Shown in pieces: positions 3,879-19,540 of a stretch of 21,149 nucleotides of DNA (its first letter is position 1; each line of letters starts with the position of its first letter). The notes beneath the pieces were generated by a model. The model saw nothing but the letters and a program-made list of their open reading frames with translations, was not told the origin of the DNA and made no database searches. The DNA is from a virus: the IMG/VR virus record IMGVR_UViG_3300028393_000383, positions 1 to 21,149 of that record; one strand, given 5' to 3'. A program made the position numbers and the translations under genes.

Positions 3879-4358
3879 ATGTTAGTTCGAGTTCGTGATA
3901 CTGGTGCTGTAATGTACCTTCCACAATGGGAGCAAACCTTCCCTGATACTTCTTTTCCTAATCCTATTCCTGTAGAAACTCTTAATGAGTTTGGTGCAGA
4001 TGTAGTGTTAGATGGCCCATACCCTACTTGCGGTATTTATCAGTATGTCATCTCTGGCCCTGTAATTGAGCAAGATGGCGCATGGTATACATCGTTTATT
4101 GTTGAAGATATGGATGCAGAGCAGATTGCCGCCAAAAACGCAGAATTAGCCGCCAATAACAAAGCTAAAGGCAAGCAAATACTATCTGATACTGATTGGA
4201 CTGCTATTGCTTCTGTTGCTGATTCTGCCGAATCAAACCCTTATTTGACTAACCGCCAAGCATTTTTAGAGTATCGCTCTGCCGTTAGAGCTATTGTGCT
4301 TAACCCTGCTTTTGATTCAGTATTCCCTACAGAACCAACAGAGGTATGGAGTAGCTAA
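3879..4358 (+). CDS. Tail-fibre-assembly / tail-assembly-chaperone-like protein, 159 aa
   Basis: The N-terminal ~75 residues are a small beta-type region. Residues 80-100 are a charged Ala/Lys helix. The C-terminal part has TDW at 105-107 and a helix with YRSAVRAI at 132-139, ending in VFPTEPTEVW. The arrangement TDW ... Q.(F/W)..YR..(L/V)R.I ... P is typical of phage tail assembly chaperones such as the XkdW and tail-fibre-assembly groups, which are usually encoded directly after the fibre they serve, as here. ATG 3879 has AGGA at 3869-3872 overlapping the upstream TAG. The stop overlaps the next ATG (TAATG at 4356-4360). Likely a non-virion or minor chaperone for the two upstream proteins; this is inference from motif and position. 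Confidence 0.65.
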   Translation: MLVRVRDTGAVMYLPQWEQTFPDTSFPNPIPVETLNEFGADVVLDGPYPTCGIYQYVISGPVIEQDGAWYTSFIVEDMDAEQIAAKNAELAANNKAKGKQILSDTDWTAIASVADSAESNPYLTNRQAFLEYRSAVRAIVLNPAFDSVFPTEPTEVWSS

Positions 4359-5023
4359 TGCTAGGTTTTACCCCGTTCTCGACTAATCCTATATCGGATA
4401 TACAACTTCCTGCAATTACAGGAACAATTAATGTAACCGATAGTAACGATACTGCTACTCTTACAGGTACAGTAGCTAATCCTATTGTTACAGGGACTAT
4501 TTCGGCAACGGATAGTAACGATACTGCTAATATTACAGGTGCTGTTCTTGTACCATCTACAGGCACTATTTCAGCTACAGATAGCAACGACACAGCAAGC
4601 ATTGAAGGCTTTGTTGGCGTACCTGTAACAGGCGATACCCATGACGGCTTTACTCGTAAAGAAATTGAAAGAGCTAGAAAATTACAAGCAAAGATAGCTA
4701 AATTAGAAAAGCAGCGTTTAGACGCTTATCGTAAGGCTCAAGCTGACCGCAAATCTGCTATTAAGGAATTGGTAGACCCAACTCCTAAAAACAAGCAAAA
4801 GAAAAATAAAGTACAATCCAATCAAGAAGTTAGCGAAGATATACCGTCTGAGATAACTGCATTAGACAATACCATCGCTAACCTTGTTAAACAACAACAA
4901 GAACTTTTGCATGGCGTAATGCTTAGACAAGAGCTAGTTCGGATACAAACCGAAATGGCTATCTTAGAAGCAAAACGCTTGCAAGAATTAGACGATGAGG
5001 AAGCATTATTACTACTACTTTAA
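4358..5023 (+). CDS. Repeat plus coiled-coil protein of unknown function, 221 aa
   Basis: Residues 23-92 hold three near-identical 23-24-residue repeats of the form T-I-(S/N)-(A/V)-TDSNDTA-x-(L/I)-x-G, suggesting short beta hairpins. Residues 93-221 are highly charged and helical. They include a Lys/Arg/Ala-rich coiled coil (about 100-140), a basic linker around PKNKQKKNK, and a second Gln/Glu/Leu coiled coil (about 162-216). ATG 4358 follows GGAG at 4348-4351 and overlaps the upstream stop. The protein ends in five Leu codons before TAA 5021-5023, exactly where the next gene's 5' end becomes ambiguous; loss of one base there would extend this frame to the TAA at 5064-5066. No enzymatic motif is seen. 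A minor virion component is plausible but unproven. Confidence 0.65.
   Translation: MLGFTPFSTNPISDIQLPAITGTINVTDSNDTATLTGTVANPIVTGTISATDSNDTANITGAVLVPSTGTISATDSNDTASIEGFVGVPVTGDTHDGFTRKEIERARKLQAKIAKLEKQRLDAYRKAQADRKSAIKELVDPTPKNKQKKNKVQSNQEVSEDIPSEITALDNTIANLVKQQQELLHGVMLRQELVRIQTEMAILEAKRLQELDDEEALLLLL
4424..4633 (+). repeat. Three tandem coding repeats, about 69-72 bp each
   Basis: Units at 4424-4495, 4496-4564 and 4565-4633 encode the TDSNDTA repeats of the 221-aa protein. The core words GATAGTAACGATACTGCTA (units 1 and 2) and GATAGCAACGACACAGCAA (unit 3) differ mainly at third codon positions, so the protein repeat is kept while the DNA drifts. Confidence 0.85.
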
Positions 5024-5118: not shown

Positions 5119-5913
5119 GTGATGGCAAACCAAGCTCAACCATACATTCAGCCATTAAAAATGCCTGTTTGGAGAGGTGAAAGTTTATTAGGGAAAACCA
5201 TTACTGTCCTTGCAGAGCAAGGTTTTGGTGACATTATTCAGTATGCTCGATTCCTACCTTTTTTAAAGGTCATGGGAGCTAAGTCTGTAGTGCTATTGCA
5301 AAACGGCTCATTACATCGTTTATTTGGTCAAATGGACTGTGTTGATGTATTTAGCAATATGCCAGAAGAAGGCATTGCTACTGAGTCTGACTACTGGATT
5401 GGCATGATTTCTTTGCCTTATTACATTAGCCTAGCGCCAGCGTATGCAAGGGCTTTATTCCCTATGACAGCCAAAAAAATAGTAGGCTCAGAAGGCTATT
5501 TAGATGCTTTGCCTAGCAATATCCCTAAAAAATTAGCAGTAAATTGGGCTACTTCTAAAGGTCTTTTGCATTATGTCCGCACAATGCGACCTGAAACTAT
5601 GCTGGAATTAGTAGGTAATGACGCTTATTCATTTAATCCCCAAGAAGATAGATTCTGGTCACCTTTGCCTAATGATGGTTGGAAAGAGGATTGGAATAAG
5701 ACTGCAAGCCATTTAAAAGCCTGTAAAGGGCTTGTGACTGTTGATACAGGCATAGCGCACCTAGCTGGTGCTTTGGGTGTTAAAACCGTCTGCATCATGC
5801 CTAAAAAAGAGTTTAAATGCTGGCGTTGGAAACATGGTTCTTGGTACGACTCAGTAGTGACGGTCGAAGAAGATGAATTGCACAAGATACCTGAACTTAT
5901 TGGGAGAATGTAA
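5119..5913 (+). CDS. TPR/GT9-type glycosyltransferase-like protein (5' end uncertain)
   Basis: Probable sugar transferase related to the heptosyltransferase-like (GT9, GT-B fold) domain of TPR-containing glycosyltransferases. Numbered from GTG 5119 (264 aa), the P.W.GE.L.GKTITV stretch is at about 16-30, the family-typical AEQGFGD loop at 32-38, and the C-terminal signature TVDTGIAHLAGALG at 207-220 (the D-T/S-..-H..GALG sugar-nucleotide site), followed by WRW...SWY at 235-243. The middle (140-200) is degenerate relative to typical members. GTG 5119 lies inside the conserved region, so the real protein almost certainly starts about 30-40 residues earlier. The stop overlaps the next ATG (TAATG). 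It sits inside the virion module, so virion-protein or host-surface glycosylation is possible; donor and acceptor are unknown. Confidence 0.75.
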   Translation: MMANQAQPYIQPLKMPVWRGESLLGKTITVLAEQGFGDIIQYARFLPFLKVMGAKSVVLLQNGSLHRLFGQMDCVDVFSNMPEEGIATESDYWIGMISLPYYISLAPAYARALFPMTAKKIVGSEGYLDALPSNIPKKLAVNWATSKGLLHYVRTMRPETMLELVGNDAYSFNPQEDRFWSPLPNDGWKEDWNKTASHLKACKGLVTVDTGIAHLAGALGVKTVCIMPKKEFKCWRWKHGSWYDSVVTVEEDELHKIPELIGRM

Positions 5914-7418: not shown

Positions 7419-8399
7419 ATGGCATTTGCTAATAGCGCAATTACCGATATTATCGCTACAACCATTCAAAGTCGTAGCGGTGAATTGGCAGACAACTTAA
7501 CACAAAACAACGCAATTTTGCAGCGTTTAAATCAAAAGGGCAATGTACGCCCATTCTCAGGTGGTAATGTCATCCTCGAGGAAATAATGTACAACGACCC
7601 CAACTCAAATAATGCTAATAGCTATTCTGGCTATGAAGTATTGAACATTGCTCCAGATAGCCCTATTTCTGCTGCTCAGTATAAAATTTCTCAGTATGCA
7701 GACGCAGTAACAATGTCTGGTTTGGAAATGTTGCAGAACTCAAGCAAAGAAGCAATCATCGACTTGTTAGATGGTCGTATGCAAGTTTCTGAAGCTCGTT
7801 TGTTAAACCGTATCTCTGGTGACTTGTTCCTAGACGGTACAGGTAATGGCGGTAAGAACCTTGATGGTTTGGCTGCTGCTGTTTCCTCTACTCCAACAAC
7901 AGGTACATACGGTGGTATTAACCGTGCTAACTGGACTTTCTGGCAGAACGTTGCTACAACAGGTACAACTATCACTACTTCAAACATCTTGGCTAAGATG
8001 ACTTCTACAGCTATTCAATTAGTTCGTGGAACAGACAAAGCTGACTTGATTGTTGCTGATAACAACTTCTACAGCCTGTATGTACAGTCATTGCAAGCTA
8101 TTCAGCGTATCGCTTCCGAAGAAGCTGGTGCTGCTGGTTTCGCTTCATTAAAGTTCTACGGTGGCGGTACATCTGCTGATGTTGTATTGGGCGGTGGTTA
8201 TGGTAATGAGCAGCCTTCTAACACAATGTACTTCTTGAACACCAACTACATTTTCTTACGCCCACACAAAGAGCGTAACTTTGTACCTATTGGTGGTGAG
8301 CGTCAGTCAATTAACCAAGACGCAATCGTGAAGTTATACGGTTGGGCTGGTAACTTGACTACATCTAACAGCTTCTTGCAAGGCATTATGACCAACTAA
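7419..8399 (+). CDS. Major capsid protein, 326 aa
   Basis: Forms the icosahedral shell. The N-terminus (TTIQSRSGELADNLTQNNAIL) and the following G(N)VRPFSGGNVILEEIMY segment at about 42-58 are characteristic of a family of podovirus/siphovirus capsid proteins, presumed HK97-fold. Residues about 80-110 (AAQYKISQYADAVTMSGLEM) and 120-145 (E/D-rich helix, then SGDLFLDGTGNGGKNLDGL) match the same family. Its Arg codons are all CGT or CGC (12 of 12 by hand count), and Asn, Phe and Ile are often C-ending, as expected for a very highly expressed gene and unlike most neighbours. AAGGA at 7406-7410 gives a good ribosome site. A strong terminator directly follows the stop. No obvious delta domain or cleavage site is visible at the start. 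Confidence 0.9.
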   Translation: MAFANSAITDIIATTIQSRSGELADNLTQNNAILQRLNQKGNVRPFSGGNVILEEIMYNDPNSNNANSYSGYEVLNIAPDSPISAAQYKISQYADAVTMSGLEMLQNSSKEAIIDLLDGRMQVSEARLLNRISGDLFLDGTGNGGKNLDGLAAAVSSTPTTGTYGGINRANWTFWQNVATTGTTITTSNILAKMTSTAIQLVRGTDKADLIVADNNFYSLYVQSLQAIQRIASEEAGAAGFASLKFYGGGTSADVVLGGGYGNEQPSNTMYFLNTNYIFLRPHKERNFVPIGGERQSINQDAIVKLYGWAGNLTTSNSFLQGIMTN

Positions 8400-9457: not shown

Positions 9458-10369
9458 ATGTCATCAACGATGCTACAACTCGTAAATCAAGTTCAATCTG
9501 AGCTTAATTTAGCCGTTACCCCTAATGTGGCAGGAAATCCTAGCCAAGATACGCAACAAATCTTGTCTTTGATGAACGCTGCTGGGTATGAGCTAATTAA
9601 AGAGCATGATTGGCAAGCTTTACAAGTTCAGTATCGTTTTTACACTCAAGCTATTACAACAAACGCTACTACAGTCAATGGTTCTACTATTTTGACTGTA
9701 GCTAGCGGTACTAATATTAGTGCAGTCACAAATCAATGGCAGATTACTGGCTATAACATTAACCAGGACACCAATGTAATATCAGCAAATAACACCTCAA
9801 AGCAAATTACCATGAGCCAAATGGCTTCAGGTACAGGTACGGGTTCTGTTGTATTGGCGCAAACTGCCTATGACCTTCCTGATGACTTTGAAGCTATTAC
9901 AGACCGCACGATGTGGGATAAAACTAAGCATTGGGAAATGTTGGGTGGTGAAGATGCTCAACAATGGCAATGGCTCAAGTCTGGCTATATCTCAACTGGC
10001 CCTAGAATTCGTTGGAGAATCTTAGATAACCAATTCCAAATCTGGCCTCCAATGAACACCCAAGAGTATTTAGGCTGGGAATATCGTTCTAAAGGCTGGG
10101 CTAGAAGTGCTAACGGCACTATAAAAAACAGCTTTACAAATGATGATGATACAACTGTCCTTGATGACCGTGTCATGGTGCTTTATACCAAGCTTAAATA
10201 CTTCCAAATTAAGTCTTTTGACACTACTGCATTAACTCAAGATTATCAGCGTTATTTGTCAATTGCCAAAGCCAATGATAAAGGCGCTCCTAACCTATCA
10301 TTTGCTCCTAATCCAAGCCAAGTGCTAATTGGATGGGCTAATATCCCTGACAGTAACTACGGTACATAA
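9458..10369 (+). CDS. Head-tail connector/adaptor-like protein (T7 gp11 / P22 gp4 position), 303 aa
   Basis: Likely forms the ring under the portal. The N-terminal ~60 residues are helical (LVNQVQSELNL ... LMNAAGYELIKEHDWQ), typical of podovirus adaptor/tail-tubular-A-like proteins, where a helical bundle with a ..W..L motif precedes a beta region. Residues 66-134 form a Thr/Asn-rich beta insertion. Residues 138-144 (YDLPDDF) start a segment with W-rich motifs (DRTMWDKTKHW; WEYRSKGWAR) and a C-terminal helix (VMVLYTKLKYFQ). ATG 9458 has AGAGG at 9447-9451. The stop overlaps the next start (TAATG). The assignment uses the helical start, the YDLP..F motif and gene order. Confidence 0.65.
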   Translation: MSSTMLQLVNQVQSELNLAVTPNVAGNPSQDTQQILSLMNAAGYELIKEHDWQALQVQYRFYTQAITTNATTVNGSTILTVASGTNISAVTNQWQITGYNINQDTNVISANNTSKQITMSQMASGTGTGSVVLAQTAYDLPDDFEAITDRTMWDKTKHWEMLGGEDAQQWQWLKSGYISTGPRIRWRILDNQFQIWPPMNTQEYLGWEYRSKGWARSANGTIKNSFTNDDDTTVLDDRVMVLYTKLKYFQIKSFDTTALTQDYQRYLSIAKANDKGAPNLSFAPNPSQVLIGWANIPDSNYGT

Positions 10370-12123
10370 TGCAAGCTAAACCATTTACCGCCCTTACAGC
10401 GTCTATCACATCGCCTATTGGCGGTTGGAACGCTAGAGATTCTGTTGCACAAATGCCAGTTACCGATGCGGTGACTTTGACTAATTTGTACCCCAATCCT
10501 ACTGATGTGCAGTTAAGGAAGGGTTATTCTAAAAAGTCTATTGGCATTACAGGTAAAGTTAATACATTAATGAACTATGCTGGCGCAAATACTCAAAAAC
10601 TATTTGCTGCGGCTGGTACGGCTATTTATAACTGCGATACCGCTACTGCGACCAATGTTTATACAATTACCAATGACAAGTTTCAGTATGTCAATATTAC
10701 TACTGCAGGCGGTAATTTCTTAGTAGCTTGTAATGGCACAGACCCTACCTTAATCTATGACGGTACTAATTGGATTAAGATGGCTACGACTACAACAGCC
10801 TCTGCAATTGTTTCGATTACCCATGTTGGAACGCTTGCCACGCTTACAACGACTACACCGCATGGGTTAGTCACAGGCAACCAAGTAACGCTTACTGGTA
10901 ACCTTCCTACGGCTTACAACGGCACTTATATTATTACAGTAACAGGTGCAAGCACTTTTACTTATGTAATGGCTAGTACCCCTGCTACTAATGCTCTTAC
11001 TATTGGTTCTTATTTAGTTAATTTTGGTGTAACTGGGGTAAACCCTAATACATTTATTAATGTAAATTTATTTAAAAATCGCTTATATTTTACAGAAAAA
11101 AATACTTTAAAAGTATGGTATTTACCTGTTAATGCTTTAGGTGGCGCAGCTTCTCAATTAGATTTTGGTGGTATTGCTCGTAACGGTGGCTTTCTTCAAG
11201 GAATGGCTACTTGGACTATTGACGCTGGTCAAGGCGCAGACGATTACGCAGTTTTTGTTACCAATATGGGTGAGGTTATTGTCTATAACGGCACAGACCC
11301 ATCAAATGCTGACACATGGGCATTAAAAGGTGTATGGCAACTAGGTTACGTATTTAGCCGTAGGTTCTATTATAAATGGGGTGGGGACATCCTATTGCTT
11401 ACTCAAGATGGCTTAGTTCCTTTGGCTTCTGCCTTGCAATCTAGCCGTTTAGACCCAAGAATAAACATTACCGACAAGATTTATTATGCTATTTCTTTAG
11501 CTGCTGATACTTATTCTACTGAATATGGCTGGCAAGTTATTTATTTTGCCAAACCCAATATGCTGATTATTAACATCCCTGATACTACAGGCACTCAGCA
11601 ATATGTAATGCACACTATCAGTAAGGCTTGGTGCAACTTTACAGGCATTAATACGACTTGTTTTGAACTAAGTAATGATGATTTGTATTTTGGTGGCACA
11701 GGTTTTGTAGGTAAGTTTTTTGATACTAATGCTGACAATGGAGCTAATATTTCAGCCACTTGTCAACAGGCATATAGCTATTTTGACAAACCAGGACAAC
11801 AAAAGCGTTTTACTATGGTTCGCCCTACATTCTTAGTTGATGTGGGTACTCCTGGTATTTATGCTGGTATTAATACCGATTTCCAGACACAGAATAACCT
11901 TGGAAAAGTCACTTTTGTGCAAACCCCTACCACTACCGCAATATGGGGTACGGCTACATGGGATAATTCTGTATTTGCTGGAAACTTAGTAATTTCTCGC
12001 CAATGGCAAGGGGTTACAGGTTTAGGCTATGCTGGTGGTATTAACTTAAATATGGTTTCCGCTGGTATTGATGTACATTGGGTATCTACGGATTATGTAA
12101 TGGAACAAGGTACTGTAATCTAA
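10369..12123 (+). CDS. Tail hub / stabilisation-like protein (T7 gp12 or P22 gp10 type), 584 aa
   Basis: Probable nozzle or hub of the short tail. The N-terminus has SPIGGWNARDSVAQMP (15-30) and then LTNLYPNPTDVQLRKGY (37-53), the recognisable opening of podovirus tail-stabilisation/tail-tubular-B-type proteins. Repeated beta blades follow (VNTLMNYAG..TQKLFAA; FLVACNG; AVFVTNMGEVIVYNGTDPS; DILLLTQDGLVPL), suggesting a propeller-like body. Residues about 145-205 look like an extra beta module with HGL.TG..V...G....YNG.Y.I.V....TFTY. The C-terminal ~100 residues are beta-rich and end YVMEQGTVI. The start overlaps the upstream stop with little Shine-Dalgarno signal, so translation is probably coupled. 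A 67-base gap containing a hairpin follows. Confidence 0.72.
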   Translation: MQAKPFTALTASITSPIGGWNARDSVAQMPVTDAVTLTNLYPNPTDVQLRKGYSKKSIGITGKVNTLMNYAGANTQKLFAAAGTAIYNCDTATATNVYTITNDKFQYVNITTAGGNFLVACNGTDPTLIYDGTNWIKMATTTTASAIVSITHVGTLATLTTTTPHGLVTGNQVTLTGNLPTAYNGTYIITVTGASTFTYVMASTPATNALTIGSYLVNFGVTGVNPNTFINVNLFKNRLYFTEKNTLKVWYLPVNALGGAASQLDFGGIARNGGFLQGMATWTIDAGQGADDYAVFVTNMGEVIVYNGTDPSNADTWALKGVWQLGYVFSRRFYYKWGGDILLLTQDGLVPLASALQSSRLDPRINITDKIYYAISLAADTYSTEYGWQVIYFAKPNMLIINIPDTTGTQQYVMHTISKAWCNFTGINTTCFELSNDDLYFGGTGFVGKFFDTNADNGANISATCQQAYSYFDKPGQQKRFTMVRPTFLVDVGTPGIYAGINTDFQTQNNLGKVTFVQTPTTTAIWGTATWDNSVFAGNLVISRQWQGVTGLGYAGGINLNMVSAGIDVHWVSTDYVMEQGTVI

Positions 12124-12190: not shown

Positions 12191-13891
12191 ATGGGCGCAG
12201 TAGACACATCATTAAATAGATACAATCAATACGCTAGTTCAGTATTGCCTGGCCCTGGACAGCCTATGCCAAATTATCAAGATTGGACTCAGCAACAAAA
12301 GTCTACTCTAGACCCGCAAAGTAATGTGCCACAAAACACATATCAAAACACAATGACAGGGTTAATGAACCCTAGTAGTTACGAGCAGGGATTTGTTAAT
12401 CCTTTTCCTGACGGCACTCAACAGTTAACAGGCCCTCTTGGTGGCGGCCCAGGCTACACTCCTCCTACACAGCAACAACTAGATTATTGGAAAACAAATC
12501 CAGGTCAAATGGATGAAGGTACTGGTTCAGGCCCTTATGCTCCAGGATATAAACCAGACGCTCCTTATACTGGAAATGAATCTATTGGCGAAAGATTCAA
12601 TATTATGAATAATCTTATGAGCCAACAAGCAGCAAATACTAATATAAACAATCCTCAATTAAACGCTCAAACAAACACTAATGCTAGTGGAGCTAATGAC
12701 CCTGTTAGCGGTTTATATCAAAGTTTATTAGGTCGTGCTCCTGATGCAGCAGGACTTCAATATTTTCAAAATCAATTGCAATCTGGCAAATCTGTTCAAG
12801 ACATTACCAATGCTATTAAAGCTAGTCCTGAATATACACAAAGAAACCCTACTGCAACAGCAACACAAGCAAATGACCCTGTTTCAAATTTGTATCAACA
12901 AGTTTTAGGTCGTACACCTGATGCTGCTGGATTGCAATATTGGCAAGGTCAATTAGCTTCAGGCAAGTCTATTCAAGATATTACTAACGCTCTTAAAGCT
13001 AGTCCTGAATACAAGCAAAAAAATCCTACTAACCCTAGTACACAGCCAAATACTAATCCATATGGTATTACTACTGCTAACCCTTTTTCATCTAGTACAA
13101 ACCCTTATATCCAAGCTGCACAGCAAACTTCATTAGCTAACTTAGCTGGCGCACAAACGGCTACTGCCGCTAATCGTGTAAACCAACAAACGCCTTATGG
13201 TTCATTGCAATACACCCAAACAGGTACAGATGCTCAAGGCAACCCTATTTGGTCTGCTAATCAATCATTAAGCCCACAGTTACAACAATTAACTACTCAA
13301 TCATTAACAGGATTACAGAATTCTTTAACTAATCCTGCTTATGGCATTAATCCTGGTCAGACTTATAGCGATGCAATTATGCAACGCTTGCAACCACAGC
13401 AAAAACAAGCACAAGAGCGTTTAGATGCCCAGTTAGCCAACCAAGGAATTATGCCTGGTTCAGAGGCTTACAACCGTGCTAAAACACTACAAAGTCAGTC
13501 ACTTAATGACCAATTAACAAGTGCTATTGTTGGCGGTATGCAAACAGGCATACAAGCTAATACTGCTCAAAACCAAACAGCAGCTAACATTAAGTCTTTA
13601 GCTACTCCTGGTTATATAAACCCTTATAGTCAAGCAGCTACAACTGGCCCTGATTACACAGGTGCTTACGCTACATCTAGTGCTGCTGATATTGCCGCTA
13701 GAAATGCTCAATTAGCGCAAAAGAATAATTTAACTTCAGGCTTATTTAATTTAGGTACTGCTGGAATATTAGGCGGCGGTGGTTTAACTGGTTTAGCAAG
13801 CTCTATTCCAGGTGTTTATAACTATTTTGATAATTTAGCTACAAGAAGCATAAATCAAGCATCGCCTGATTTTATTGGCCCAATATTTTAA
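12191..13891 (+). CDS. Internal/ejection-type virion protein with two DUF4214-like repeats, 566 aa
   Basis: Gln/Asn/Pro/Gly-rich and low in charge. Residues 1-165 are disordered-looking. Residues 170-215 and 229-274 are two tandem copies of a DUF4214-like unit: DPV..LYQ..LGR.PD.AGLQY(F/W)...L.SGKS.QDITNA.KASPEY. Residues 334-341 (TPYGSLQY) and the Q-rich helix around 397-435 (LQPQQKQAQERLDAQLANQG, then MPGSEAY) are typical of a protein found next to ejection proteins in many environmental phages. Residues about 517-545 form a Gly-rich hydrophobic segment that could contact membrane. ATG 12191 has AGGAG at 12180-12184. A DNA-ejection or internal-core role is inferred; the role of DUF4214 in phages is not established. 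Confidence 0.65.
   Translation: MGAVDTSLNRYNQYASSVLPGPGQPMPNYQDWTQQQKSTLDPQSNVPQNTYQNTMTGLMNPSSYEQGFVNPFPDGTQQLTGPLGGGPGYTPPTQQQLDYWKTNPGQMDEGTGSGPYAPGYKPDAPYTGNESIGERFNIMNNLMSQQAANTNINNPQLNAQTNTNASGANDPVSGLYQSLLGRAPDAAGLQYFQNQLQSGKSVQDITNAIKASPEYTQRNPTATATQANDPVSNLYQQVLGRTPDAAGLQYWQGQLASGKSIQDITNALKASPEYKQKNPTNPSTQPNTNPYGITTANPFSSSTNPYIQAAQQTSLANLAGAQTATAANRVNQQTPYGSLQYTQTGTDAQGNPIWSANQSLSPQLQQLTTQSLTGLQNSLTNPAYGINPGQTYSDAIMQRLQPQQKQAQERLDAQLANQGIMPGSEAYNRAKTLQSQSLNDQLTSAIVGGMQTGIQANTAQNQTAANIKSLATPGYINPYSQAATTGPDYTGAYATSSAADIAARNAQLAQKNNLTSGLFNLGTAGILGGGGLTGLASSIPGVYNYFDNLATRSINQASPDFIGPIF
12698..13012 (+). repeat. Tandem duplication encoding the DUF4214-like units, 177-bp period
   Basis: The unit at 12698-12835 recurs at 12875-13012 with many shared words (GACCCTGTT..., TTAGGTCGT, CCTGATGC(A/T)GC, CAAGA(C/T)ATTAC, AAAGCTAGTCCTGAATA). 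Differences are concentrated at third positions and in aromatic residues (YF versus YW). Confidence 0.85.
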
Positions 13892-13897
13892 ATAATT

Positions 13898-14254
13898 ATG
13901 ACTCCATCAGAAATCATTATTGCCGATACTCAAGATGTAGACCCTAATGAGGTTTTACAGGGAATTGCTCAAGCTGTAAAAGCTAAAAAAGCGGTTCTTT
14001 TCCATGAGGGTAATTCTGTATTAGTGGCATTTAAACTTGATAATCAAGCGGTAGAGCTACATTTATTTACCAAAGATTCACCAATTAAATTAGCTAAAGC
14101 AATACTAGAGTTTGTTAAAAAGCTACAAAGTGCTGGTATTAAAACAGTATACGGTACTGAGCCACCAACTCAAATTTTGCAATTATTAAAAAATTTAGGA
14201 ATTGAAGTTCAAGAGTCTGATAATCCTAAGTTTATGTGGATGTCACAAATATGA
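13898..14254 (+). CDS. Small protein in T7 gp13 position, possible acyltransferase-like fold, 118 aa
   Basis: Alternating strands and helices: VLFHEGNSVLVAFKLDN and VELHLFTKDSP (two strands, about 33-63), a long helix LAKAILEFVKKLQSAG (about 65-80), strand TVYGTE, helix ILQLLKNLGIEVQ, and a final FMWMS strand. This order and the AGI..VY....P.....L.NLGI pattern resemble the C-terminal half of GNAT-fold proteins, including the small internal virion protein of T7-type phages. No clear acetyl-CoA loop (R/Q..G.G/A) is visible, so a structural rather than catalytic role is more likely. ATG 13898 is six bases after the upstream stop with no Shine-Dalgarno site. The TGA overlaps the next ATG (ATGA). 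Function inferred, moderate to low confidence. Confidence 0.5.
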   Translation: MTPSEIIIADTQDVDPNEVLQGIAQAVKAKKAVLFHEGNSVLVAFKLDNQAVELHLFTKDSPIKLAKAILEFVKKLQSAGIKTVYGTEPPTQILQLLKNLGIEVQESDNPKFMWMSQI

Positions 14255-15258
14255 TTAAAAGCAAACATTCTGGATGGTCTTACGATTTACAGCGCACCCC
14301 GTTTAAAGGTGGTGGCATTATTGAGTCTATTGGCAACGCTGTTGGCGATGCGTTTGGCTCTGTGGGAAATGCTATTGGTGATGTTGGTGTTTTTATAGAT
14401 AAAAGTGTTACACAACCTGTCGGCAAAGGATTTGCTCAAGCAGACAAATTTATGACTAATTTAACGCCTTATGGTTGGGCGTTACCAGCAGCTATCGTAG
14501 CTGCATATTTTACTGCTGGTGGCTCTCTTGCAGCAGAAGGCGCTGCAGAAGGTGCAGCATTAGCAGCAGAAGCTGGAACGGCAGCAGCAGAAGCTGGTGC
14601 GGCTGCAGCAGCAGAAGCTGGAGCAACAACAGCCGCAACCGAAGCCGCAACAACGGCTGGGAGTGAAGCTTTTGCAAATGGTATTGCTGCTGGAATGTCT
14701 GAAGCAGAGGCTACCGCAGCTGCAAATGCAGCAGCAGACGCTTCTTTAGCTTCTTCAGCAGGAGTAGAGTCTGGTGCTGGGTTAGAAGCTTTGTCAACTT
14801 CAAGTTCAGCAGTAGGGCCAACTTACGGTGAATTAGGAGTTACAGGTGTTGAAGGTGGAATGGCTGGGCCAACATACGGTGAACTTGGTTACACAGGATT
14901 AAATCAAGGCGAGGCTATTGCATCAGCTGATGCTGCATCACAATTAGCTCAATTAAAAGATTACGCATCAACCGCAAAAGATGTTTATAGCAATGTTAAT
15001 CGTGCAAAAAGCATTTTTGATACTTTAAGTAATTCTGGTCAATCATCTACCCCGCAAGCTTACGCTGCTGCATTACAAGCTACCCAAACACCAATGGAGC
15101 AATTTGGTGGTTTATATCGCATGAATAACACACCATTCTTGCAACAACAAACAGCATCAATTAGCCCAGATTCTTATAATGTATCTGGTCAAAACATAGC
15201 ATCACCTACAGCGCCAACAAATCAATTATTGGCTAATTTGTTATATCCAAAGGCTTAA
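14251..15258 (+). CDS. Ala-rich internal virion/ejection-type protein with a membrane segment, 335 aa
   Basis: Numbered from ATG 14251. Residues 15-50 contain F.GGGIIESIGNAVGDAFGSVGNAIGDV, an amphipathic Gly/Ile/Val repeat often seen in phage internal proteins. Residues 74-91 (YGWALPAAIVAAYFTAGG) are a likely transmembrane or membrane-inserting helix. Residues about 93-170 are almost pure Ala/Glu/Gly/Thr. GPTYGELG occurs twice, 17 residues apart (14815-14838 and 14866-14889). The rest is helical and then Gln/Ser/Asn-rich. I chose ATG 14251 because it forms an ATGA overlap with the upstream stop; a GTG at 14236 would add only five residues and overlap more. By order and hydrophobicity it may play the part of T7 gp14 in tunnelling DNA through the envelope. 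Confidence 0.65.
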   Translation: MIKSKHSGWSYDLQRTPFKGGGIIESIGNAVGDAFGSVGNAIGDVGVFIDKSVTQPVGKGFAQADKFMTNLTPYGWALPAAIVAAYFTAGGSLAAEGAAEGAALAAEAGTAAAEAGAAAAAEAGATTAATEAATTAGSEAFANGIAAGMSEAEATAAANAAADASLASSAGVESGAGLEALSTSSSAVGPTYGELGVTGVEGGMAGPTYGELGYTGLNQGEAIASADAASQLAQLKDYASTAKDVYSNVNRAKSIFDTLSNSGQSSTPQAYAAALQATQTPMEQFGGLYRMNNTPFLQQQTASISPDSYNVSGQNIASPTAPTNQLLANLLYPKA

Positions 15259-15260
15259 TC

Positions 15261-16421
15261 ATGGCACAAGACGCATACTTAACCGACCCAAATAATCCTG
15301 AATACGCTGATATATCTCGTCAACGCAAACTTGCTGAAATGCTCACTTCAAAAGCATTTGAACAGCCACAAGGTAATATGGTGTCAGGTCATTATGTAGC
15401 TCCTTCAATTACTCAGCAATTAGCCCCATTATTTAGTGGTATTGCTGGGCAATCAATGAACAAACAGTTAGATGAAAAACAATTAAAACTTGCTGAAGTT
15501 TTGCGTCAAAAACAAGCTCAACAAATTGAACAATATGGTCAATTAGAACAACAAGACAAAGGCGCTGCGTTGCGCTTTGCTTTAAGTAGTGATAATCCTA
15601 TATTGCGTGATATGGCAAAAGAAGAACTAAAAGGAATTACCCTTGCAGAAGGTGCTGTAAATAAAAAAACAAGTTTAAGCGGAGCTGTAACAGAACAAAA
15701 AGGAAATGAAAAATTACATTCTGTAGATGGTAATTTGGTTAATTCTCAAGGACAAGTAATATTTAAAGCCCCTAAAGTATTTGCGCCTCATGCTTCACAA
15801 CTTGTACCAGTTCGAGGTGGTTTTGCAGAATACAATCCAAATACAAAAACCCTTACACCTATAGGCGGAGGTCAAGGTGGTGCAACAGGTACGCCAACTG
15901 GTGCTTTAATGCCTCCATTACCACAACATTTGCAAACAGAAATGTCGTCAATTAATCAACAAAAATCAACTATTAATGATGTATTAAAAAGCGTTGAACA
16001 AAATAGACAATATTTTGGAACTAAATATGCAGCACCAGAAATTATTGCTGGAGAACTTGGTGCTTCAAAAATGAATCAAAAACTGCCATCTTCTGCTGTT
16101 GAATCAAGGTCACAAGTATTTAATACAGCTTCTTCTGTTATTAAAGAAAGGGCAGGTACTGCACAATCTAAAAATGAAAGCGCAATTATTATGCGTTTCT
16201 TGCCTTCTATTTATGACAATGACAAAGTAATTATTGATAAATTAAATGGTTTTAATAAATATTTAGAAAGTAAAGAAAAGGGTATAACACCTGATATTGG
16301 TGCTGTTCCTGCATATAGACCTGGAACAACAAACACCAATTCAAATCAAAAATTTGACCCTGCATTATTACAATATATGACTCCTGAACAACAAGCTTTG
16401 TTTGCTCCAAAAGGTCAATAA
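15261..16421 (+). CDS. Internal/ejection-type virion protein, 386 aa
   Basis: The N-terminus (AYLTDPNNPEYADISRQRKLAEML ... QPQGNMVSGHYVAPS, residues 5-50) is a pattern I know from phage proteins in the ejection cluster. Residues 65-110 are a Gln/Lys/Glu coiled coil, 115-140 helical, 145-215 beta-rich with Gly-rich linkers, and 220-345 helical (QQKSTINDVLKSVEQNRQYFG). The C-terminus ends in FDPALLQYMTPEQQALF. No signal peptide or transmembrane segment is seen. ATG 15261 has AAAGG at 15249-15253 overlapping the end of the upstream gene. The next ATG follows two bases after this stop. Its length and place suit a T7 gp15-like internal core protein, but no homology to gp15 is visible to me. Confidence 0.6.
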   Translation: MAQDAYLTDPNNPEYADISRQRKLAEMLTSKAFEQPQGNMVSGHYVAPSITQQLAPLFSGIAGQSMNKQLDEKQLKLAEVLRQKQAQQIEQYGQLEQQDKGAALRFALSSDNPILRDMAKEELKGITLAEGAVNKKTSLSGAVTEQKGNEKLHSVDGNLVNSQGQVIFKAPKVFAPHASQLVPVRGGFAEYNPNTKTLTPIGGGQGGATGTPTGALMPPLPQHLQTEMSSINQQKSTINDVLKSVEQNRQYFGTKYAAPEIIAGELGASKMNQKLPSSAVESRSQVFNTASSVIKERAGTAQSKNESAIIMRFLPSIYDNDKVIIDKLNGFNKYLESKEKGITPDIGAVPAYRPGTTNTNSNQKFDPALLQYMTPEQQALFAPKGQ

Positions 16422-16422
16422 T

Positions 16423-18288
16423 ATGGCAGACTTAACATTAGAACAACAGCAAGCTATTGCAATAGCTCAAGCCAAAATGCGTATGGCTCAAGCTAAGCCT
16501 GAGCAAGGTAATATGTACACTCAAGGTGCTGAGGATATTCAATATTCACCTGAAGGTATACCTCTAAATACATCTTCTTATGGTTCTGCACCTACAGGCG
16601 CAACTAAATCTGCACAAGAAGCATTAACTAGCACAGTTAGCTTGCCTTTAAATGTAGCTACTGGTGTTGCTAAAGCCCCTGCTGCATTAGCTCAATTAAT
16701 TAGCAAAGGTATTGGTTCAAATGCTGGTGATATACCTGTAAATGCTATTAATCAAATTGAAAAAGGTACACAAGCTCAAATGGGAGATGTGGGTAGTGCT
16801 GCAAGTCAAATTGGAAGTGCAGTTGGTCAAGCAGCGCCATTTTTAGCTGGCGGTAATATTGGCATGATTCCTAGCATGGCACAAAAAATTGGTGGAGGAG
16901 TTTTAGGTGGTATAACTTCAGGATTTTTAACTCCAGAAGAAACTAATTTAACGCCTGAACAATTTAAAGATGCTAAAGCACAAAATATAGCTATTCAAGC
17001 TACATTAGGCGGTGTTTTACCTGGAGCAGGCGGATTAATTAAAGGCGGTTATAACGCTGCTAAATCAGCTTTAGAACCATTTTATGAAAGTGGTCAAGGA
17101 AAAATTATTGGTCGTGCGTTGCGTGACTTTGCAGGAGGTCAAGCTCCACAAGCAATTGAAAATATTAGAAATGCACCACAATTAGTAAAGGGTGTTCAGC
17201 CTACTGTTGGTGAAATTTCTGGTGTGCCAAGTTTGGCTGCCGCACAAAGAGCAGTTTCAGCTTCTTCACCTGAAGCTACAAATATTATGGCTCAAAGACA
17301 AGCTCAAAATATTGAAGCAAGAACTAACGCCTTACAAGGAATTGCAACCCCTACAAGAACGCAAAAATATACTGCGTTGAGAACAGAACTTGGTAATGAT
17401 TTATATGAACCAGCTCTTAAAAAAGGCATTAATTTTTCTTCTTTAACCCCAAAATTACAAACAGAATTTAGGGGACTAACAACATCTCCATCTATTAAAT
17501 CAGCAATGATTCAAGCCAGTAAAAATGCTGCCGATGAAGGTAAAAAAATTGGCAACCCAGCAAATTCATTGCGTGGTTTGCATGAAACTAAATTAGCTTT
17601 AGATAGCCAAATTAATTCTCTAGAAGCTAAATTAATAAATACTAAAAATCCTAGTCTTGATGCTGAATTAAAAGCTAAAAAAACTGCAAAAAATAGATTG
17701 CTTAGTTTTATTGAAAATTCTGAAGTTAGTCCAGAATATAAAATAGCTAGAGAAACTTTTGCTAGAGCATCAAAACCTATAGACCAATTAGAATCTATTG
17801 CTAAATTAGCTGAAAAATCTGTTTCACCAGAAAGTCAAAAGATTTATTCTGCTCAATTTTCAAGAAATTTTGATGCTTTGAAAAAAGATGGGATTTTAAC
17901 TGACCGTCAAATTAATAGATTAGAAGCAATTAAAAAAGATTTAGAGCGTGTTTCTTTTTCTGAAAAAGAAGGAAAAGGCGTAGGTTCTGACACAGTACAA
18001 AAACTTGCTTATTCAAATATGGCTAATCAAGTTGGAATACCTAATGCTTTAAGAGGTTTTCCAGGCGGTCAAATGTTAGGTAATGTAGCTCAAAGAGTTG
18101 GTAAATTAGCTTATGGTGATGCAAATAAAGAATTGGCCATAAAATTAGCTGAAACTATGGCAAACCCAAAACAAGCTGCGTTATTAATGGAGCAAGCAGG
18201 ATTAAAGAATGCGCCATTAACATCAGAAAATCAAAGAAAATTAGCTAAAATTTTATTAATGCAGTCTACAGCTCAAATAGCACAATAA
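16423..18288 (+). CDS. Large internal/ejection-type virion protein, 621 aa
   Basis: Numbered from ATG 16423. The N-terminal helix is Gln/Ala-rich (LEQQQAIAIAQAKMRMAQAK). Residues about 122-170 and 190-210 are Gly/Ala/Ile-rich hydrophobic stretches that could insert into membranes. Residues 230-621 are mostly helical and charged, with coiled-coil propensity around 395-440, and end near LAETMANPKQAALLMEQAG and KILLMQSTAQIAQ. I see no lytic transglycosylase motif, which larger internal proteins such as T7 gp16 carry. Arg is coded by AGA/AGG in 15 of 21 cases by hand count, opposite to the capsid gene. I prefer ATG 16423 (AAAAGG at 16409-16414) over TTG 16402, which overlaps the upstream gene. 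Confidence 0.65.
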   Translation: MADLTLEQQQAIAIAQAKMRMAQAKPEQGNMYTQGAEDIQYSPEGIPLNTSSYGSAPTGATKSAQEALTSTVSLPLNVATGVAKAPAALAQLISKGIGSNAGDIPVNAINQIEKGTQAQMGDVGSAASQIGSAVGQAAPFLAGGNIGMIPSMAQKIGGGVLGGITSGFLTPEETNLTPEQFKDAKAQNIAIQATLGGVLPGAGGLIKGGYNAAKSALEPFYESGQGKIIGRALRDFAGGQAPQAIENIRNAPQLVKGVQPTVGEISGVPSLAAAQRAVSASSPEATNIMAQRQAQNIEARTNALQGIATPTRTQKYTALRTELGNDLYEPALKKGINFSSLTPKLQTEFRGLTTSPSIKSAMIQASKNAADEGKKIGNPANSLRGLHETKLALDSQINSLEAKLINTKNPSLDAELKAKKTAKNRLLSFIENSEVSPEYKIARETFARASKPIDQLESIAKLAEKSVSPESQKIYSAQFSRNFDALKKDGILTDRQINRLEAIKKDLERVSFSEKEGKGVGSDTVQKLAYSNMANQVGIPNALRGFPGGQMLGNVAQRVGKLAYGDANKELAIKLAETMANPKQAALLMEQAGLKNAPLTSENQRKLAKILLMQSTAQIAQ

Positions 18289-18298
18289 AGGAATTACT

Positions 18299-19540
18299 AT
18301 GCCACGCTCAAGCGGAACTTACACCTTACCAGCAGGTAATCCTGTTGTTACAGGGACTACTATTACCTCTACATGGGCTAATACTACATTTAGCGATGTA
18401 GCTACAGCTTTGACAGGTTCTGTTGCTACAGACGGTACATCGCCTATGACAGGCATTTTGCAAATGAGCAATAACAAGATTACAGGGGTTGCTGATGGTA
18501 CAGCCGCTACAGATGTAGCTACAGTTAATCAGATTTCTAATCCTACAATTACTGGCGGTACTATTGATGGCGCACCTATTGGTGCTGCTAATCCAAAAAA
18601 TGGTGCTTTTTTAGCTTTATCTGCTACTACTGCTGCTTTTTCAGGTGTATCTACAGCCCCTACAGTAACTCCAGCATCAGATAGCTCTACAAAGATTGCC
18701 ACTACAGCTTTTGTACAATCTGCAATTAGCGCAGTATCTTCAGGTGTTACTAGCTTTAATACGCGCTCTGGAGTGGTTACATTAAATTCAGGTGATGTCA
18801 CTACGGCATTAGGGTATACCCCATATAATTCAGGTGGTGCTACTGTTATTACTACTAGCAACATTAGCACTTATGCCCCTACAGTTAGCGGCACAGGCGC
18901 TTATGGTACATGGGGTATTTCTGTAAGTGGTAATGCTGCAACTGCAACAACAGCTACTAATCTTTCTGGTGGCTCTGTAAGTGCTACAACAGTTACGGCA
19001 TCAGGGGCGGTTACTTCAAATAGTAGTGGATTTGCTGCTTTAGCTAGTTCTGCTGTTCAGCTTTATAACGGCAACACTTCTATGTCGCATAATGGAACTT
19101 CATTTTCATGGGGTCAAAATAGCACAATTATTGCTGCTTTATCTCCAAGTCAATTTGTACCTTCACCTGACAACACTTTAAGTTTAGGTTCTGGTGGATT
19201 GCGTTGGACTACTGTATACGCTACTACAGGCACTATTAATACTTCTGACCGCAACGATAAACAACAAGTAGCAGACTTAACAGCAGCAGAAAAAGCAGTA
19301 GGTCAAGCCCTAAAAGGCATGATGAAAACCTTTAAGTTTAACGATGCCGTATTAGTTAAAGGCCCTAATGCTCGTATTCATTTTGGTGTAATTGCACAAG
19401 ATGTAAAAGCTGCTTTTGAGGCACAAGGTCTTACTGCTGAAAACTATGGTGTATTTTGCTCTGATACATTGCCAAATGGTCATACTCGTCTTGGTGTTAG
19501 ATATGAAGAATTGCTTGCTTTAATCATCGGCTCTTTATAA
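18299..19540 (+). CDS. Tail fibre with C-terminal S74 intramolecular chaperone domain, 413 aa
   Basis: Adsorption fibre. The N-terminus (PRSSGTYTLPAGNPVVTGTTI) is a common virion-attachment domain of phage fibres. Residues 60-120 contain MSNNKITGVADGTAATDVATVNQ and a TIDG/IG repeat area. Residues 120-310 are Ser/Thr/Gly/Ala-rich beta-fibre with an SGDVTTALGYTP motif (167-178). The C-terminus is an S74 (endosialidase-type) chaperone that trimerises the fibre and then cleaves itself off. TSDRNDK at 315-321 supplies the Ser316/Lys321 pair expected for autoproteolysis before Ser316, followed by helices with FGVIAQDVKAAFEAQG, YGVFCSD and LGVRYEELLALIIGSL. ATG 18299 has AAAGGA at 18287-18292. Predicted mature fibre is about 315 residues. 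Confidence 0.88.
   Translation: MPRSSGTYTLPAGNPVVTGTTITSTWANTTFSDVATALTGSVATDGTSPMTGILQMSNNKITGVADGTAATDVATVNQISNPTITGGTIDGAPIGAANPKNGAFLALSATTAAFSGVSTAPTVTPASDSSTKIATTAFVQSAISAVSSGVTSFNTRSGVVTLNSGDVTTALGYTPYNSGGATVITTSNISTYAPTVSGTGAYGTWGISVSGNAATATTATNLSGGSVSATTVTASGAVTSNSSGFAALASSAVQLYNGNTSMSHNGTSFSWGQNSTIIAALSPSQFVPSPDNTLSLGSGGLRWTTVYATTGTINTSDRNDKQQVADLTAAEKAVGQALKGMMKTFKFNDAVLVKGPNARIHFGVIAQDVKAAFEAQGLTAENYGVFCSDTLPNGHTRLGVRYEELLALIIGSL

Follow-up and report, generated by a model that had tools for sequence, protein, structure and literature searches.

The window, by which we mean the whole 21,149-nucleotide stretch analysed here (positions 1 to 21,149 of IMG/VR virus record IMGVR_UViG_3300028393_000383), is a phage structural region with genes for a major head protein, a tail protein, a neck/nozzle-like protein, several delivery-type proteins and a tail fibre protein (Table 1). 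The subject of this study is a 566-residue ORF, called the core gene below after its conserved C-terminal core. The first-pass annotation had assigned this ORF to an internal or ejection cluster, and its setting agrees with that assignment: the gene sits in a delivery-type cluster between the phrog_5107 neck/nozzle-like gene and the Peptidase_S74 tail fibre gene. PHROGs names phrog_5107 an amidase, and a Rhizobium phage record lists a homologue as neck protein. The window's phrog_5107 protein gave no match in a PDB search, either as a single protein or as a profile, and its family aligns with a nozzle-type family (L138/L157/L158 and two more loci) over 45 columns at a probability of 49%; we therefore infer a nozzle here from position. 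The tail protein also had no PDB match, and the 628-aa cluster protein had no PHROG or Pfam match. The 118-aa protein directly after the core gene bears a weak, non-significant resemblance to a GNAT-like gene that precedes the core gene in many relatives; it is not claimed as a GNAT protein (E 0.043 in a single-target search, hhalign probability 6.5).

Table 1 Features mapped in the 21,149-nucleotide window
Feature	Position	Strand	Evidence
Major head protein (phrog_9953)	7419..8399	+	PHROG match
Tail protein (phrog_6013), adaptor-like by position	9458..10369	+	PHROG match, gene order
Neck/nozzle-like protein (phrog_5107), 584 aa, directly before core gene	10369..12123	+	PHROG match, position
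ORF, 566 aa, virion-type: variable N-terminal arm, two DUF4214 units, conserved C-terminal core	12191..13891	+	
N-terminal arm (aa 1-167), variable among relatives, AF2 confidence mostly low	12191..12691	+	
DUF4214 unit 1	12692..12844	+	Pfam, in-register comparison
8-residue linker separating the units	12845..12868	+	
DUF4214 unit 2	12869..13021	+	Pfam, in-register comparison
Conserved core, aa 280-531; phrog_6121 best stretch aa 390-465	13028..13783	+	
118-aa protein directly after core gene	13898..14254	+	
Ala-rich 340-aa protein, delivery-type cluster	14236..15258	+	
386-aa protein, delivery-type cluster	15261..16421	+	
628-aa protein, delivery-type cluster	16402..18288	+	
Tail fibre protein with C-terminal Peptidase_S74	18299..19540	+	PHROG + Pfam

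The 566-aa protein is rich in Gln and Asn (22.3% together), as first described, and its two repeated segments, initially read as DUF4214-like, belong to that family. In a profile search the whole ORF scores 84.7 bits against PF13946 (E 4.6e-24), far above the curated cut-off of 23.2 and with the family pattern, and the single units score 41.2 (unit 1) and 51.3 bits (unit 2); a genome scan placed them at 12692-12841 and 12815-13021. The tandem arrangement, with an exact 177-bp period, was also borne out, and the strongest 50-residue self-diagonal in the protein contains 40 identities, where 200 shuffles gave 13.2 on average and at most 16. Identity between the two units is 75.8% for DNA, 78.4% for protein and 63% at third codon positions. 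The resulting dN of 0.20 against a dS of about 0.75 points to purifying selection on the units. The duplication had been called recent-looking, which fits neither this dS nor the presence of the same two-unit arrangement in the relative L005, whose unit 1 is identical in protein to that of the window. Across 16 phage units, both window units included, seven columns (Y, R, P, D, G, G, E) are invariant, and the pattern Y-LGR-PD-G-W-G-E is kept in units of unrelated proteins. The AF2 model of the 566-aa protein has a mean pLDDT of 60, with residues 1-89 under 50; the DUF4214 units are modelled confidently, with 10-residue blocks at 71-97 pLDDT, each unit forming a small bundle of about four helices.

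The C-terminal half of the protein consists of a conserved core made up mostly of helices, modelled as a long helix, a β-hairpin and further helices. It matches phrog_6121 (E 4.4e-18, 66.9 bits) over part of the profile (positions 139-214 of 392), a family that PHROGs labels as virion structural protein under 'head and packaging'. One scan found the core in 46 viral contigs and a profile scan in at least 368 stretches, of which the best 80 loci were kept; invariant core columns are common to 38 aligned relatives. Named phages of Sulfitobacter, Rhizobium, Bradyrhizobium and Microcystis, among others, encode it, and in Sulfitobacter phage pCB2047-C, Rhizobium phage RHph_I3_18 and EBPR podovirus 2 a homologous core stands in a similar gene order. 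Unlike the window protein, the four named-phage phrog_6121 records searched carry no DUF4214. The pCB2047-C homologue (L051:5421-6410) ends in Peptidase_S74 (30.3 bits, cut-off 22), a fibre chaperone domain and a hallmark of tail fibres, which was found in none of the 38 core-family members scanned, the window included. The pCB2047-C gene with this ending itself sits within a delivery-type cluster. PDB searches returned no match for the whole 566-aa protein or for the core-family profile, and fold searches with two models (mean pLDDT 60 and 67) gave no PDB hit below E 0.001. Fold-search rows over aa 388-458 resemble generic helical bundles. In BFVD, the one hit below 0.001 is a phage DUF4214 protein, and some of the weak matches bear names referring to a tail-fibre or chaperone domain. 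The window protein was also considered as a tail tape-measure protein and rejected, as no PHROG or Pfam tape-measure family matched it.

The gene order around the core is that of a T7-like delivery region. Both genes are visible in 121 loci (a set that, like the 125 core ORFs, contains near-copies and contigs represented more than once). The start of the core gene follows the neck/nozzle-like gene at a distance of 62-199 bp in 53 of these loci, 200-799 bp in 67 and 1021 bp in one, and 62 of the 121 have a GNAT-family ORF in between. The T7 map reads 11-12-13-14-15-16-17-holin, with gene 13 between genes 12 and 14. According to PMC8954989 and PMC11784390, gene 12 encodes the nozzle, gp14 is the first internal protein to leave, and the gp14 channel at the outer membrane contacts LPS. 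In position, the core gene therefore corresponds to T7 gene 14, after a nozzle-type gene (putative in the window) and before larger delivery proteins and a fibre gene. By hhalign, however, the core family shows no relation to T7 gp14 (probability 0.0, E 0.96), and eight cluster families compared with seven T7 proteins (genes 11-17) yielded nothing convincing, with a best probability of 4.2. Whereas gp14-like proteins are described as having transmembrane helices (PMC8954989), a simple hydropathy scan of the 566-aa protein found none, the maximum over 19 residues being 1.17 and no window exceeding 1.6. Because we found neither a sequence relation to gp14 nor a predicted membrane helix, we do not file the protein as a gp14. 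The T7-like order suggests that the phage is probably short-tailed, and the best account of the 566-aa ORF is that it encodes a virion protein belonging to a cluster of DNA-delivery (ejection) genes.

DUF4214 forms an exchangeable arm at the N-terminus of the core protein, gained or lost at least four to six times. Counting units in related phages, a check proposed by the first-pass annotation, gave DUF4214 in 16 of 125 core ORFs (repeats included) and left 109 without it. The count used a profile built from phage units, with which Pfam scans agree; the L031 unit, below the Pfam cut-off, was counted through this profile, and one match on another contig of a bacterial assembly was left uncounted. 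Between 27 and 333 residues precede a core motif in the 121 ORFs that contain it. On a core tree of 114 rows, which left out 11 of the 125 ORFs (the distant or short L050-L053 and L126-L128, and the repeats L014, L055, L057 and L099), the trait requires at least six changes, at least four of them forced by starred branches, against 15.3 with shuffled labels. Close to the window, L005 has two units, L006 one and L007 none, L007 bearing an unrelated arm in its place. By eye, the single L006 unit resembles a fusion between the first half of L005 unit 1 and the second half of its unit 2. In the clade L084/L090/L092 (SH-aLRT 98) the core lacks a unit and a DUF4214-like unit lies in the next gene downstream, scoring 26.2 bits in L084 (6328-7287) and weak, below the cut-off, in L090 and L092.

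The same module recurs in other phage proteins. A scan of IMG/VR with the 16 phage units confirmed 238 stretches, and the best 80 loci, which were kept, comprise 50 tape-measure-like, 13 core-family (three already among the earlier core loci), 10 large array, 5 small ejection-type and 2 unclassified carriers. The tape-measure-like carriers were called by length and unit position in 48 cases and by eye, as C-terminal fragments, in two (L142, L179). PHROG and Pfam scans covered 26 of the 42 non-redundant carriers, Salicola phage CGphi29 among them; 21 of these 26 candidates match phrog_25966, 'tail length tape measure protein', and Pfam detects DUF4214 in 25, TMP_2 in 7, TMP_3 in 6 and PhageMin_Tail in 3. 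Of 49 complete or partial carriers, a set that takes in Salicola phage CGphi29, only 18 show a C-terminal motif that we take to be of tape-measure type. Among 39 complete carriers, 90-119 aa (median 104) separate the end of the last unit from the C-terminus, and 39 of 49 carriers have two units, most often 45 residues apart. In lambda, the tape-measure C-terminus is located in the tail tip, beside the exit (PMC10721106), and can pass the opened tip (PMC11101478). Siphovirus carriers such as L147, L190 and Salicola phage CGphi29 bear this module, as a rule in tandem, on proteins that move through the tail, whereas the window protein has 566 aa, with its units before the core and 59 residues apart.

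The array proteins (L138, L140, L151, L157, L173, L181, L184, L189, L193 and L201) contain three to seven units starting near the N-terminus and measure 1328-1630 aa in the seven complete ones; the four of the ten that were scanned (L138, L157, L173, L181) match no PHROG family. In L138, L157 and L181 the array protein is encoded by the first large gene after a nozzle-type gene, with an 83-aa ORF in between in L138 and L181. That nozzle-type gene belongs to phrog_3287 in L138 and L157, and the L181 protein aligns with both. Nozzle-type proteins match the solved nozzle 8zkk, with E 3.1e-5 for L157 and 9.7e-28 for L158. Four of the five small ejection-type carriers are near-copies, and the two scanned both match phrog_4287, 'DNA ejection protein'. 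The DUF4214 protein of L158 matches phrog_4287, is encoded downstream of the nozzle-matching protein and precedes by two genes a phrog_26400 'DNA ejection protein'. For L175, Pfam detected DUF4214 only and no PHROG family matched. Taken together, the tape-measure, array and ejection-type carriers show the module recurring on proteins whose route leads, or probably leads, through the tail; the location in the window, at first judged unusual, is thus a recurrent one.

We claim this association with delivery proteins for the 80 closest loci rather than for all viral DUF4214, on account of two further observations. A second viral sample, seeded with gp15 of EBPR siphovirus 2, returned 21 loci, and none of the ten carriers scanned has an informative PHROG match; gp15 itself (L001:3915-5195) is annotated as a protease and has two N-terminal DUF4214-like units. 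In Marine virus AG-345-O18 (L207), the protein with the unit is large and hits PHROGs for virion structural and major head proteins, so that it is neither a tape measure nor an ejection protein. Five DUF4214-bearing queries against 50,697 phage records matched such units in no more than three phages: Salicola phage CGphi29, EBPR siphovirus 2 and Marine virus AG-345-O18. Three phages among so many records, set against 238 confirmed stretches in one environmental viral scan, mark a blind spot.

A DUF4214 call in a phage is already known in databases, where automatic annotation names phage proteins DUF4214 domain-containing (BFVD hit A0A6J5MN99). In the literature searched, which lay largely outside subscription papers, the papers that use the term DUF4214 include none on phages, the accession PF13946 is absent, and the pattern of DUF4214 across delivery proteins was not found. 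The members discussed in these papers are bacterial and taken to be surface or extracellular proteins (PMC12780176, PMC11970703), in contrast to the phage delivery-cluster protein described here. DUF4214 is called a likely surface-anchoring domain in a study of segmented filamentous bacteria (PMC12780176), and a Halomonas DUF4214 protein was mutated in seven of eight evolved populations (PMC11970703).

A profile of the tandem pair matches the N-terminal domain of the Caulobacter S-layer protein RsaA (residues 4-92; PDB 6t72) at a whole-sequence E of 3.9e-4 and 1.4e-3 for the best stretch; a single-unit profile reaches only 0.26. The match is weak, and RsaA 4-92 has its own Pfam family, RsaA_NTD (PF19198), with no DUF4214 at E up to 1; conversely, PF19198 is not among the Pfam matches of the window protein at E up to 1. 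Structural comparison of models with mean pLDDT 60 and 67 gave a Foldseek E of 0.85 and VIA Z scores of 3.5 (rmsd 10.1, 99 residues) and 3.9 (rmsd 2.3, 45 residues). The RsaA domain binds the LPS O-antigen with Ca2+ and uses a Ca2+ loop at residues 77-100 (PMC6978808); inspection by eye shows no obvious counterpart of this loop in the phage units. The initial suggestion that the virion protein may contact surface or wall sugars gains some support from the match to this O-antigen-bound domain.

Gene order and the 'DNA ejection protein' matches of similar carriers point to an ejected window protein, whereas the tail-fibre hallmark on the pCB2047-C homologue points to an exposed one. Taking as observations the DUF4214 domain and conserved core, the order of the genes, the gain and loss of units, and the recurrences at tape-measure C-termini and downstream of nozzle-type genes, we infer, tentatively and at somewhat less than even likelihood, that the two DUF4214 units are an envelope-docking module on an early-leaving part of the delivery machine. 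The units would be packed inside the virion and would leave through the tail with the first proteins. They may then bind an envelope polymer, either the LPS O-chain or core, or peptidoglycan, and, once bound, would hold the growing channel in place during DNA passage. The weak match to the O-antigen-bound RsaA domain, and the early exit of T7 gp14 with its LPS-contacting channel, speak for a partner of this kind. Differences between host surfaces could in turn drive the gain, loss and duplication of units and their placement in a neighbouring gene. Counting against docking are the weakness of the RsaA match, the 109 of 125 core ORFs that lack the module, the lack of a convincing relation between the cluster families and T7 genes 11-17, the second viral sample with its uninformative PHROG scans, and the Peptidase_S74 ending of the pCB2047-C homologue, unexpected for an internal protein.

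The main rival is an assembly role inside the tail, in which the units, as an assembly or plug module, would bind phage proteins rather than the host, seating the protein in the nozzle or tail-tip ring and helping to keep the delivery proteins in place until ejection. The Foldseek list is headed by phycobilisome linkers (E 0.018-0.067 for the first five), proteins located in the lumen of ring-shaped discs, with a VIA Z of 5.6 and an rmsd of 3.9 over 87 residues, and the linker protein ApcE has the best whole-sequence E (1.5e-7) in the tandem-pair profile search. One linker domain (PF00427) aligns over both window units at 14.8 bits, below its cut-off of 28.7. This alignment, which spans window positions 12692-13021, would fit an origin of the linker domain from a duplicated DUF4214-like unit. 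Several DUF4214 carriers are encoded after nozzle-type genes, and the units of tape-measure proteins lie near the C-terminus, the end that in lambda meets the plug protein gpI in the tail tip (PMC10721106, PMC11101478). Against these points, the ApcE score adds weak domains together, the best single stretch having an E of 0.79 against 0.0014 for RsaA, all fold matches are weak, and presence in 16 of 125 ORFs with repeated gain or loss fits a dispensable trait better than a part needed for assembly. Fold support for docking and for assembly is comparable, the modelled resemblance to RsaA and to linkers appearing consistent but weak in each case. We regard the assembly role as rather doubtful.

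It is unlikely, in our estimate, that the units are passive spacers, a common and easily duplicated helical filler acquired by recombination and without a binding role. Patchy presence, variation in unit number and the unrelated arm of the near relative L007 are what such a filler would produce, but the Y-LGR-PD-G-W-G-E pattern persists across unrelated proteins, the dN and dS between units point to purifying selection, and placement is repeated at the same end of tape-measure proteins. Quite improbable is an exposed tail adhesin, with the core protein as an external tail or fibre component whose DUF4214 arm touches the cell surface at adsorption: the S74 ending in pCB2047-C, the weak BFVD matches to tail-fibre or chaperone-domain names and the variable arm speak for it, and the lack of S74 in all 38 core-family members scanned, the position of the rest of the cluster and of a separate S74 fibre gene after the core gene, and the fact that the commonest other carriers are tape-measure proteins, inside the tail, speak against it.

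Envelope docking can also be framed more broadly. DUF4214 would then be a general, exchangeable docking module of phage conduits, related to the LPS-anchoring domain of a bacterial S-layer protein and spanning unrelated tape-measure and ejection proteins in long- and short-tailed phages alike; taken as a whole, this wider reading is somewhat doubtful. If it is true, phages would moor their delivery channel to the envelope with a module of the sort by which bacteria keep surface proteins attached there. A small modular domain near the tail-tip end of many tape-measure proteins, gained, lost and shifted within delivery clusters, offers a direct handle on what tape-measure and ejection proteins touch as they exit. 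The DUF4214 domain can be made alone, which renders it amenable to a binding assay.

Three further features of the window were recorded. An ORF at 5119-5913, inside the structural cluster, resembles glycosyltransferase family 9 (heptosyltransferase-like; 21.9 against a cut-off of 22.0), and homologues stand upstream of the head genes in the related contigs L054, L060, L063, L074, L087, L099, L100 and L103. The 340-aa cluster protein contains Ala-rich tandem repeats of GCA type at 14545-14637. By eye, near-repeats of the type TGTISATDSNDTA run through 4358-5023, in a protein encoded upstream of the head genes.
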